A stretch of 64,000 nt of DNA, taken from NCBI GenBank assembly GCA_016212095.1, contig JACRHH010000014.1, forward strand, positions 1 through 64,000. The letters are read 5' to 3'. Below are positions 50,456 through 54,468 of the stretch, piece by piece. Position 1 is the stretch's first letter. The number at the start of each line of letters is the position of its first letter. Position numbers and translations under genes: made by a program. This DNA comes from Nitrospirota bacterium (lineage in GTDB: Bacteria; Nitrospirota; Thermodesulfovibrionia; SZUA-242). A model generated the notes under the pieces. It searched no databases. It saw only the letters and a program-made list of their open reading frames with translations, and was not told the origin of the DNA.

Positions 50456-51307
50456 TCAAAAAAATTCCTGAAGCGTTCCCTCGATCCTCGATGAATCGAA
50501 CGCCTGATGCACGAGCGGCCCGGCTGCCAGCATCGGAACGCGCTCCTCGAAGGCCGGGCGGTTATTCCGGTATATGACGCCTATCGGGATACGGTCGCCC
50601 CATTCGAGCGACTTCGAAAACGCCGCCATGCGGTCTTCGGGATTATAATCGGGTTCGATATGGTAAACGCGCTTGCGATACCACTCGTATGTATTCACCT
50701 TGTTGAAGGTGACACAGGGCTGAAGGATGTCGATCAGCGCAAAGCCGGTGTGGTTCATCGCTTCTTTCATGACAACTTCGAGGTGCGCCGTATCGGCTGC
50801 GAAGCCCCGCGCCGCGAAGCCGCAGTCTAGCGCCACGGCAAGAGCCATCGGGTTGAACTGTCCGGAGATCACACCAAACGGGGCATTTTTGGCAACCGTG
50901 CCTTCGCCGGTTGTTGGAGACGGCTGCCCCTTGGTCAATCCGTAGATCTGGTTATCGTGGACGAAAAGCTTCACGTTTATGTTCCTGCGAATCGCGGCCA
51001 TGAGATGATTGCCGCCCTCGCCGTAACAGTCGCCGTCGCCGGTGGTGACGATCACAGGCATTGCATGGTTGGCAAGCCTGATGCCGGTTGCAACCGGCAA
51101 GGCTCTGCCATGCAGGCCGTTGAAAGTATTGCACCTGGTGTAGTGCGGCAGCTTTGCGGCCTGACCGATCCCTGAAACCACGGTGATCTGATGCGGTTCA
51201 AGCTGAAGCTCGACCATGACATCCTTGAACGCTTTCAGGATCGCAAAATTGCCGCACCCCGGACACCATGCCGGAGTCTGGCCCCTAAATGTTTCCAAGG
51301 TGACCAT
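50456..51307 (-). CDS. korB: 2-oxoacid:ferredoxin oxidoreductase, beta subunit
   Basis: 283 residues from the ATG at 51307. Holds thiamine pyrophosphate (GDGDCYGEGG, NIQIYG-type NQIYGLTKGQ) and iron-sulfur Cys residues (WCPGCGNF). With the alpha/gamma subunit it oxidises 2-oxoglutarate or another 2-oxoacid with CoA and reduces ferredoxin. An upstream in-frame start at 51319 is possible. It overlaps korA by 23 bases. KorAB is low-potential and oxygen-sensitive, in keeping with an anaerobe. The substrate is inferred from overall similarity only. Confidence 0.9.
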   Translation of the reverse strand: MVTLETFRGQTPAWCPGCGNFAILKAFKDVMVELQLEPHQITVVSGIGQAAKLPHYTRCNTFNGLHGRALPVATGIRLANHAMPVIVTTGDGDCYGEGGNHLMAAIRRNINVKLFVHDNQIYGLTKGQPSPTTGEGTVAKNAPFGVISGQFNPMALAVALDCGFAARGFAADTAHLEVVMKEAMNHTGFALIDILQPCVTFNKVNTYEWYRKRVYHIEPDYNPEDRMAAFSKSLEWGDRIPIGVIYRNNRPAFEERVPMLAAGPLVHQAFDSSRIEGTLQEFF

Positions 51308-53012
51308 TGATCTCTCCAATCAGCTCTTCAACCGTGAATGGCCTGCCATCATATCTGTGGATCAGGGCATCGAACTCAAAACCTGTTTCGGCGCGCAGCA
51401 ACCGGCTGAACTGGCCGGTGGCGTTGTGCTCCATGCATATGGAAAGCATTGCCTTCCGCAGAAATGCCGCGTAATCGAATGGCTCCAGATTCGGCAGGGG
51501 AAAAACCTCGCTGAAGTGGAGCATCGCAATGCTCGTTGACTTTGCCAGCTCATCGACGGCTTCCTTCATGACCCCATATGTCGAGCCCCATCCGGTCAGG
51601 ACAACACTCGCCTCTTGATCTCCGTATAGTTCCGGCGGCGCTATTTCAGCCTTTATGAGCGGACGTTTCATGAGGAGACGCTTTTCGACCATTCTGGTTC
51701 TTGTGGCGGCATCCTCGACAATATGCCCTTCCTCATCGTGTTCATCGCTGTCAACGACCACAACATGACCGGCGTCTCCCGGCACTGCAAGAGGAGAAAT
51801 TCCCGTCTCTGTGAACGCATGGCGCTTGTAGTCCGGCAGTTTTTTGAAGGCATCGCCCCGCAAGCGGTAATCGATGTTTCGCACCCGGCCCAAATCGAAG
51901 CTGTCGAATGTCCATTGCGAATCGGCGAGATAAGTGTCGAAGAGAATGAAGACAGGAATCTGGTATTTCTCCGCGATATCAAAGGCCTTGTTCGTGAGAT
52001 AAAATGCCTCGCCCGGAGAACCGGGAGCAAAAATGACGCGGGGAAACTCGCCATGCCCGGCAGAAATGAGGAAAGCAAGATCGCCCTGCTCGGTTCGCGT
52101 GGGAAAGCCGGTTGCCGGGCCGGGCCGTTGTCCCATGGCGATTACAACCGGCGTCTCGGTCATGCCGGCAAGCGAAAGCCCCTCCACCATCAGCGCAAAG
52201 CCGCCGCCGGATGTGCCGGTCATTGCGCGAACACCCGCGTATGACGCGCCCAATGCCATGTTGATAGCGGCAATCTCATCCTCGGCCTGCTCGACGACAA
52301 CGCCGTATTCATTCTCCTTCGACGCAAGAAAGTTCATGATGCCGGTGGACGGCGTCATGGGATAGGCCGAATAGAACCTGCATCCCGATGCAAGCGCGCC
52401 AAGCGCAATTGATTCAACTCCGCCAATCAGCATCCGCTTTTCAACTTCATTCACGGCAGCGGCAAAGGCGCACCTGTCGCAATGCTGTTTCGCGTATTGG
52501 TGCCCTGCATTGGCGGCGATTTTGTTGGCTTGAACAACATCATCGCCCTTATGCCTGAACGTGCCTGCGATAAGTTCCATCAAATGGCCTGATTCCATGC
52601 CAAGCATTCCAAGCACCGCGCCGGTTGCAACCGTATTCGCCATGATCTTGTCGCCGCCATGCTCAAAAGCCAGCTTTTCAAAGGGGATGTCAAGAAAGGC
52701 TGCGCCTTCGCCATTGAACCTGAGCGCCGAAGCGTCATGGATAATCATGCCGTTCGTCGTAAGTTCATGCTCATGGCGGTTGATGCTTTCGCGGTCGAGC
52801 GCCACAATAATATCGATCCTGTTCCGTGAAGCGGAAATGGGCTTGTTCGAAAGCCTTATCTGGTAGAAATTATGCCCGCCACGGATGCGTGACTCATAAT
52901 CCTGGTGCGAAAAAACGTGGTAACCGGAACGGACAAATACTCGGCACAGGGCATCGCCGATGGTCTGGATACCCTGTCCCGCTTCACCGCCGATCTTGAT
53001 GGAGTAATCCAT
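51285..53012 (-). CDS. korA: 2-oxoacid:ferredoxin oxidoreductase, fused gamma-alpha subunit
   Basis: 575 residues. Residues 1-185 are the gamma domain (GGEAGQGIQTIGDAL, QDYESRIRGGHNFYQIR), the rest the alpha domain (YPMTPSTGIMNFLA, VVEQAEDEIAAINMALGAS, GTSGGGFALM, FPTRTEQGDLAF). The fused form is usual in KorA. It binds the 2-oxoacid and pairs with KorB for ferredoxin reduction. The gene begins 45 bases after the selenoprotein candidate on the same strand, so they may share a transcript. Confidence 0.92.
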   Translation of the reverse strand: MDYSIKIGGEAGQGIQTIGDALCRVFVRSGYHVFSHQDYESRIRGGHNFYQIRLSNKPISASRNRIDIIVALDRESINRHEHELTTNGMIIHDASALRFNGEGAAFLDIPFEKLAFEHGGDKIMANTVATGAVLGMLGMESGHLMELIAGTFRHKGDDVVQANKIAANAGHQYAKQHCDRCAFAAAVNEVEKRMLIGGVESIALGALASGCRFYSAYPMTPSTGIMNFLASKENEYGVVVEQAEDEIAAINMALGASYAGVRAMTGTSGGGFALMVEGLSLAGMTETPVVIAMGQRPGPATGFPTRTEQGDLAFLISAGHGEFPRVIFAPGSPGEAFYLTNKAFDIAEKYQIPVFILFDTYLADSQWTFDSFDLGRVRNIDYRLRGDAFKKLPDYKRHAFTETGISPLAVPGDAGHVVVVDSDEHDEEGHIVEDAATRTRMVEKRLLMKRPLIKAEIAPPELYGDQEASVVLTGWGSTYGVMKEAVDELAKSTSIAMLHFSEVFPLPNLEPFDYAAFLRKAMLSICMEHNATGQFSRLLRAETGFEFDALIHRYDGRPFTVEELIGEINGHLGNI

Positions 53013-53057: not shown

Positions 53058-53627
53058 TCAAAGAAGCCTGTATGGGTAGGCCCGTTTAGTCCATAGGCTC
53101 TGTGGATACTCTTTTAGCAGTCGTTCGTAGGCTTCCTTGAGTGGCAACGCGTTGTGCGTGTTCTTGTAGCGGCTTACGCCTGCAAGAAAGACTGACTCCG
53201 GGGCCGAATCAGTTCCGGCGTGTTTCGCCAAAATAGTTTCAAAAGAATTGATAGCTTCCTCGAATTCGTTTGCGTCGTAATGCATTTTGCCGATGCCAAG
53301 CAATATTGAAGCGATCAACTCGTCAGCTTCCATGAAACCTACCGTCCGATGATGCTCCTTGCCGTTTTTGTCGAGAACCAGCAGGGCCGGTGTCCAGCTT
53401 ATGCCGAAATCTTTAGAAAGCGGCTGCTCATTGGAACCGACACGCAAAGGTATGACCTGCTTGTTGATGAATTCGCTGACAGCTTCATTTGGATACGTAA
53501 CTGCATCCATCTGTTGGCAGCCAATTCACTGAGGGTTGAAGAAATCCAGAAAAATCGCCTTATTCTCCGACGTTGCCCTGCTGATGGCTTGCCCGAACAC
53601 CGTTTCCCACTGAATTTTCATTGACAT
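53058..53627 (-). CDS. thioredoxin-fold protein with probable selenocysteine (UxxC)
   Basis: 189 residues if UGA at 53528-53526 is read as selenocysteine (U34). The start ATG at 53627 has AAGGAG nine bases upstream. Residues 1-110 are thioredoxin-like: KAIFLDFFNPQ-U-IGCQQMD, then the cis-Pro block SWTPALLVLDKNGKEHHRTVG. The UGA stands exactly where the first Cys of CxxC belongs. Residues 115-189 form one or two TPR-like helices. No signal peptide is seen. It lies between tRNA-Phe and korA. A nonsense mutation is the alternative, but the frame and site favour selenocysteine. Confidence 0.82.
53498..53523 (-). promoter_or_regulatory. possible bacterial SECIS hairpin
   Basis: Just after the UGA, TGGCTGC and GCAGTTA (minus strand) can pair, with an inner CCA/TGG pair closing an ACAGA loop that contains the G expected at the tip of SECIS elements. 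The spacing to the UGA is about 15 bases, at the short end of known cases. The fold was drawn by hand. Confidence 0.4.
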
Positions 53628-53800
53628 GGCGCAATCTCCTTCAGGTTTCAAACTTAGCTTCGAAGCAGAATCAGGAACATGATTCATGCCAGTTTCCAGT
53701 ATCTTCCGATTGACTTCAGGAAGCAAGAATATTTTGAAGTTTTGCCGAACGGCAAACGGTTTGGAGTAAAGAGACATTACGCAATGCCAAGCGCAAAATA

Positions 53801-53841: not shown

Positions 53842-53917
<76 letters not shown>

Positions 53918-53982: not shown

Positions 53983-54468
53983 CTATTTTATCGCCAGTTT
54001 AGCCAGAAGCGCGGCATTCACCGGCCCGGAGACGAGGCCGTCGATTCGCCCGCCGAACGAGGCCACCTCCTTGATTATGGTGGAGGTGATGTATGAATAC
54101 TCCTCGCTCGGCATCATGAAGACGGTTTCCACCTCCGTGTTCAGCCTGCGGTTCATGAGAGCCATCTGAAGCTCATACTCGAAGTCGGACACGGCGCGAA
54201 GGCCGCGCACAATCGCCACGCCTCCGGCGCGGCTTACATATTCCACAAGCAGGCCGTCGAACGCCTCGGCGGTGACGCCCTTCAGATGACTGGTTGAATG
54301 GCGGATCAGGTCGAGCCGCTCATCGAGCGTGAACAAGGGCTTTTTCTTCGGGTTCGGCGCGGCTGCCACTATCACCCGGTCGAATATGCGAAGGCTTCGC
54401 TCAACCAGATCGATATGCCCGTTGGTTATAGGGTCGAAAGTGCCCGGCACTATCGCGATTCGTTTCAT
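53983..54468 (-). CDS. coaD: phosphopantetheine adenylyltransferase
   Basis: 161 residues. Adds AMP from ATP to 4'-phosphopantetheine, the step before coenzyme A. VPGTFDPITNGHIDLVERS carries the HxGH-type nucleotidyl motif (here NGHID), VRGLRAVSDFEYELQMALMN binds substrate, and EEYSYITSTIIKEVASFGG is the second signature. It overlaps rsmD by four bases, as in many bacteria. Confidence 0.97.
   Translation of the reverse strand: MKRIAIVPGTFDPITNGHIDLVERSLRIFDRVIVAAAPNPKKKPLFTLDERLDLIRHSTSHLKGVTAEAFDGLLVEYVSRAGGVAIVRGLRAVSDFEYELQMALMNRRLNTEVETVFMMPSEEYSYITSTIIKEVASFGGRIDGLVSGPVNAALLAKLAIK

Follow-up and report, generated by a model that had tools for sequence, protein, structure and literature searches.

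A probable selenoprotein joining a thioredoxin-like UxxC site to a TPR-type domain in a Nitrospirota genome

Does the TGA inside a thioredoxin-like gene of this Nitrospirota bacterium end a protein, or does it encode selenocysteine (Sec)? The gene lies in the window, by which we mean the whole stretch of 64,000 nucleotides that was analysed, and its minus-strand frame runs from ATG 53627 through a TGA at 53528-53526 to a second TGA at 53060-53058 (Table 1). A sequence-only reading of the window had taken the gene for a probable new selenoprotein with UGA at the first position of a CxxC motif. We confirmed from the sequence that the first TGA is in frame between DFFNPQ and IGCQQMD, and that it stands in place of the first Cys of a thioredoxin CxxC motif. 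Readthrough would give a product of 189 residues (MSMKIQWE...DFFNPQ-U-IGCQQMD...WTPALL...KRAYPYRLL). The thioredoxin-like sequence described on both sides of the TGA was borne out by matches of this product to the Pfam families PF13098 and Thioredoxin.

The strong ribosome site claimed for ATG 53627 was found as AAGGAG, and the claim that no start with such a site lies after the TGA also held, the first later ATG (53510) having none. This bears on whether the locus encodes two proteins, a 33-residue peptide and an independent 150-residue protein from ATG 53510. An open reading frame with an ATG does exist after the TGA. Its start, however, lacks a ribosome site, and a protein made from it would be without the first strand of the fold and without its active site. 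The N-terminal portion also shows conservation at the protein level. We consider two separate proteins extremely improbable.

Table 1. Coordinates of the candidate selenoprotein gene, its elements and its neighbours in the window
Feature	Position	Strand	Remarks
Trx-TPR selenoprotein gene (candidate)	53058..53627	minus	189 codons and terminal TGA; one frame, single internal TGA
Ribosome binding site AAGGAG	53636..53641	minus	about 9 bases before ATG 53627; from sequence
Sec codon UGA (putative)	53526..53528	minus	residue 34, first position of U-I-G-C
SECIS hairpin GGAUGC-AGUUAC-GUAUCC (putative)	53491..53508	minus	17 bases after UGA; loop 53502-53497, G at 53501
Thioredoxin-fold domain, DsbD-gamma/DsbH-like	53307..53627	minus	residues 1-107; cis-Pro candidate P80 at 53390-53388
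C-terminal helical TPR-type domain	53061..53306	minus	residues 108-189
korA (51285-53012) and korB (50456-51319), 2-oxoacid:ferredoxin oxidoreductase	50456..53012	minus	starts 45 bases after selenoprotein gene
tRNA-Phe(GAA)	53842..53917	minus	upstream neighbour
coaD-like cytidylyltransferase	53983..54468	minus	native to host lineage

The peptide pattern with which genome contigs were scanned for homologues starts only beyond the Sec codon, and the scan was therefore unable to favour TGA over Cys. Of 132 loci, 80 were kept, with 50-67% identity. All 80 carried TGA at codon 34 and no other stop, and the reading frame was conserved at full length across them with this one internal TGA only. The hosts belonged to Desulfobacterota, Nitrospirota and anammox Planctomycetota, and included Desulfobulbaceae, Desulfocapsa, Desulfomonile, Syntrophaceae, Nitrospirota, Candidatus Brocadia and Jettenia; one of the host genomes, that of B. 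pituitae (L081), was complete. Full-length homologues with 39-55% identity were present in six of 60 genomes of relatives, and each of them had a single TGA, again at codon 34. As a second sample, a profile search covered 395 genomes from the phylum of a Desulfobulbaceae genome, and the family was found in 84 of them (about one fifth). Exactly one TGA was present in 80 of the 91 matches and none in the other 11, and no match contained TAA or TAG.

A pseudogene or a sequencing error, in which a nonsense mutation split a thioredoxin-like gene, would be the ordinary explanation for a frame broken by a stop of the standard code. However, TGA was at this codon in 80 of 80 loci without a second stop, the protein downstream was conserved to its last residues, and the stops of the second sample were TGA without exception. 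Random stops or deletions at the site, which the sequence-only reading had named as the pattern that speaks against Sec, were not found in close relatives. We give a pseudogene or error practically no probability.

Cysteine at residue 34 of homologues had been suggested as a further check, and it was found at a distance: more distant full-length homologues carried either TGA or Cys at this site, and none carried TAA or TAG. Nine loci of the second sample were taken for inspection, seven TGA-less ones and two Sec forms as contrast; Cys was at the site in all seven of the TGA-less matches examined (of 11). The full-length Cys forms were L137, L138, L140-L142 and L163-L169, of which L137, L138 and L140-L142 are held by Nitrospirota, and none was among the 80 closest homologues. 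Alternation of Sec and Cys at one site is a classical sign of a selenoprotein. Comparison of the homologues showed that UGA 34 specifies a residue equivalent to Cys.

Several other relatives were noticed in these searches. Further Sec-containing Trx-TPR subfamilies (L130-L136, L139, L143 and L144) had the motifs UxGCAAMNAGPYS, UGGCVRLEAES and UGGCKKM, the first two in Nitrospirota, which indicates a larger superfamily. One genome (G161) had both a Sec form (L136) and a Cys form (L140, CPVCRQM) of the full-length protein. Several Nitrospirota also encoded a separate, short Sec thioredoxin of one domain, which has the motif U-x-A-C and carries the same SECIS hairpin (L019-L025 and L027), and Cys relatives of this short thioredoxin (C-E-A-C; L026 and L147-L150) were without the hairpin. 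No relative was found in viral contigs.

A hairpin with a G in its tip loop had also been reported to follow the TGA. It was present, with six pairs and a loop of six bases in which G is the second, but it lies at 53508-53491, partly outside the range of 53498-53627 that had been given. Folded alone, it was unexceptional (z = -1.9), and comparative tests were used because folding of a single sequence is weak evidence at such a value. All six pairs were formed in 81 of 81 genes. Synonymous resampling with the codon usage of the family itself, a control that ignores relatedness, gave an expected pairing of 11% on average and 21% at maximum. Three codons of the region were frozen, namely Asp+7 (GAT in 81/81), Thr+10 (ACG in 72/72) and Tyr+11 (TAT in 80/80), and codons +8 and +9 were strongly biased; nearby codons on both sides varied freely.

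Covariation was analysed in 40 diverse Sec genes. All 240 of 240 cells were paired (100%), a value that describes a selected set, because the 40 genes were picked from the Sec forms with the standard register. Compensatory double changes were observed at two pairs (GC to AU and UA to AU), and a third varied on one side (GU, AU and GC). None of 500 shuffles matched the paired percentage, the number of double-change cells or the covariation score, and pairing fell to 21-61% when the partner was slid by 1-3 columns. RNAalifold recovered the same hairpin unaided. A small apical loop containing G is the mark of a bacterial SECIS (PMC1088965), and the hairpin found here, just 3' of the UGA, has such a loop; in the main family the G was always the second loop base. 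The Cys forms were without the hairpin. A few Sec forms departed from this pattern: L126 and L127 have one mismatched pair, and the pairing register of L143, L144 and L171 differs. In an Rfam scan near the gene, tRNA-Phe was the sole match above threshold, and no SECIS family was matched. These comparisons showed that the putative SECIS hairpin is under selection.

The genes selA, selB, selD and that for tRNA-Sec, whose presence in the genome had been named as a check, were all found in the host (2.97 Mb in 39 contigs, rated 100% complete). SelA scored 621 bits, SelB 363 bits and SelD 362 bits, and tRNA-Sec(UCA) scored 73.8 bits with an agreeing ARAGORN call. The host SelD (G000:C31:24107-25033) is itself of the Sec-containing kind, with an in-frame TGA in CGUAAKI. 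Across 38 distinct genomes with a Sec form, long or short, SelA was found in 32, and tRNA-Sec in three of the other six. Both were absent from the remaining three (G042, G050 and G232), where the missing machinery is probably due to gaps in metagenome assemblies. SelA was found in none of the five genomes with full-length Cys forms only; three of these five gave borderline tRNA-Sec scores near 49 bits, and the matched genes, of 77-85 bases, are probably other long tRNAs.

A second tRNA-Sec-like gene was observed in the host genome outside the window (G000:C5:13412-13509), with the anticodon loop CU-GCA-AA followed by U73-CCA, and G172 also had a second tRNA-Sec-like match. ARAGORN made no call for the second gene of the host. 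It resembles the selC* tRNA-Cys, a known type, some members of which have a UCA anticodon (PMC7609411). Such tRNAs give some ground for supposing that the UGA is read through as something other than Sec, with a suppressor tRNA or a Cys-loaded tRNA-Sec-like tRNA inserting Cys or Trp. However, the second tRNA of the host has the anticodon GCA and would thus read Cys codons, not UGA. Suppression, moreover, needs no frozen SECIS hairpin, and SelA, SelB and a SelD with Sec are present. Non-Sec readthrough is in our judgement very unlikely. Decoding as Sec remains our preferred reading: the product of the gene is very probably a selenoprotein of 189 residues that has a redox active site. The overall claim of the sequence-only reading was thus supported, and came through the tests that it had named as able to overturn it.

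What kind of protein would this be? Residues 19-106 matched PF13098 (Thioredoxin_2; E 2e-11, 44.4 bits vs a cut-off of 27), and Thioredox_DsbH (PF03190) and Thioredoxin were also above cut-off; TPR matches in Pfam after residue 107 were all below cut-off. AlphaFold, given a 27-row alignment with Sec entered as Cys, predicted one compact protein (pLDDT 96.9, pTM 0.91) that has five to six C-terminal helices and in which residue 34 directly precedes helix 35-44. The nearest solved folds were 3ira, 2kuc (a putative disulfide isomerase) and DsbD-gamma. Sequence profiles matched DsbD and isomerase in the Trx part and CpoB/YbgF in the TPR part. The protein has the features of a thioredoxin-fold oxidoreductase, with U34-I-G-C37 at the active helix and an invariant WTP80 in the candidate cis-Pro loop. 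It is not a classical thioredoxin TrxA, since its motif is Q-U-I-G-C and not WCGPC, and it scored 32.8 bits against TIGR01068 vs the 96.8 required. No N-terminal signal sequence was apparent by eye, and the selenoprotein is therefore probably cytosolic.

Adjacency to korAB had been included in the description of the gene. In the window, co-transcription with korAB is possible, but the arrangement does not characterise the family. Of 81 loci, 7 had a KorA-like gene at a distance of up to 5 kb, and only in the window did it adjoin the gene; on these grounds we rejected the idea of a conserved korAB operon. The 640 neighbouring ORFs fell into 438 clusters with no fixed partner. Recurrent neighbours were Hsp20, superoxide reductase, an HtrA-type protease, pirin, rubrerythrin, a TrxR-like flavoprotein and DsrC, a weak signal in favour of redox chemistry connected with stress or sulfur.

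A link to deltaproteobacteria did not hold for the host, which is Nitrospirota by kinship. The flanking coaD was closest (77%) to a genome of the host's own family. In a quick tree of the selenoprotein, made without bootstrap, other Nitrospirota stood apart from the window gene, which clustered with sequences from Desulfobulbaceae/Desulfocapsa (SH-aLRT 96). This is most simply, and probably, explained by lateral transfer between two phyla that both use Sec.

From these results we infer redox activity, client binding and a stress role for the selenoprotein. SelB and tRNA-Sec would decode UGA 34 as Sec, guided by the hairpin, which begins 17 bases after this codon. At the Sec-Ile-Gly-Cys site, Sec34 would attack oxidised client thiols (disulfides, sulfenic acids or polysulfides), and Cys37 would resolve the selenenylsulfide; thiol-selenol exchange is the best mechanism to propose because the UxxC motif sits in a Trx fold. 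The TPR domain may bind a client or a partner, and the protein would then serve as a selenium-based repair reductase in anaerobes facing oxidative or sulfur stress. We regard a client-binding role in stress as evenly balanced.

The TPR part might instead have no client role, the selenoprotein being a general Trx-like or sulfur-transfer reductase in which the helices stabilise the fold or mediate dimerisation. The sub-threshold TPR matches would fit this, as would the number of helices, about five or six vs ten in CnoX (PMC8129009), and a DsrC-like gene near six of the loci hints at sulfur metabolism. However, the TPR region is well conserved, up to its KRAYPYRL end, and is retained in the long forms, and the neighbours at other loci include Hsp20, HtrA, superoxide reductase, rubrerythrin and the TrxR-like flavoprotein. 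A TPR part without clients is possible, and we hold it at less than even probability. Returning to the client-binding reading, we tentatively propose, at less than even odds, a superfamily of Sec chaperedoxins that has escaped the catalogues. Its members would combine a UxxC reductase with a client-binding TPR and would be common to sulfate reducers, Nitrospirota and anammox bacteria, with a main clade that is exclusively Sec and that crosses phyla only into Sec-competent hosts.

Standard gene calling would truncate members of the family at codon 34 and split the protein in two. Methods that depend on Cys homologues can also miss it, because none of the 80 members of the main clade is a Cys form; the authors of deep-Sep state the need for a Cys homologue as a limit of their own tool (PMC12013277). 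Through this family, anammox bacteria join the hosts of a Trx-type selenoprotein, and its SECIS, which is defined and shows covariation, is suitable for a reporter test. If the TPR binds clients, selenium chemistry would be linked to protein quality control.

The novelty claimed for the protein stood in part. Of the 119 selenoprotein families listed in 2026 (PMC13188914) none is a Trx-TPR entry, and TPR goes unmentioned both there and in the compilation of 2022 (PMC9312934). NCBIfam release 20 had no dedicated model, and the window protein was far below all its cut-offs; 27 members of the family matched generic Trx, DsbD or TPR models or those of other selenoproteins. A literature search for a Sec-containing Trx-TPR protein returned nothing relevant. 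Two groups of Trx-fold selenoproteins, TsoB (NF045694) and VPGUxxT (NF041382/3), matched the Trx region weakly (36 bits vs a cut-off of 805, and 16 bits vs 275-350, respectively), and their Sec motifs and domain layouts differ from those of the window protein.

The nearest listed family is that of the thiol:disulfide interchange selenoproteins (PF13098, UxxC; for example WP_011366075.1), first described in Geobacter metallireducens, G. uraniireducens and Syntrophus aciditrophicus (PMC13188914, PMC1794560). The window protein has the same best Pfam domain and the same UxxC motif, and fits the combination of PF13098 with UxxC. A TPR part is unmentioned for that family in the two reports. The present family is probably new, rather than shown to be so, because this older category may overlap with it. 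In fold and sequence the Trx part is closest to DsbD-gamma, DsbH and PF03190. DsbD, however, is membrane-bound and periplasmic and has Cys, whereas the window protein is small, is predicted to be soluble, and has Sec and a TPR part.

The domain order is that of CnoX/YbbN, which has an N-terminal thioredoxin fold and a C-terminal TPR, in some cases with an active CxxC (PMC6282202, PMC8129009). Searches of the CnoX literature and of PDB sequences found no Sec-containing CnoX and no match to E. coli YbbN, respectively. Foldseek aligned the whole chain with E. coli YbbN/CnoX (3qou) but poorly (TM 0.42/0.29). The TPR of CnoX consists of two subdomains of five helices; the TPR-like region of the window protein has 82 residues and falls short of ten helices. 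Caulobacter CnoX, which has the same domain order with CxxC, is an active reductase and a holdase (PMC6282202, PMC8129009). By analogy, the selenoprotein may work in a similar way, although by structure it is not a CnoX; we put this at clearly below an even chance.
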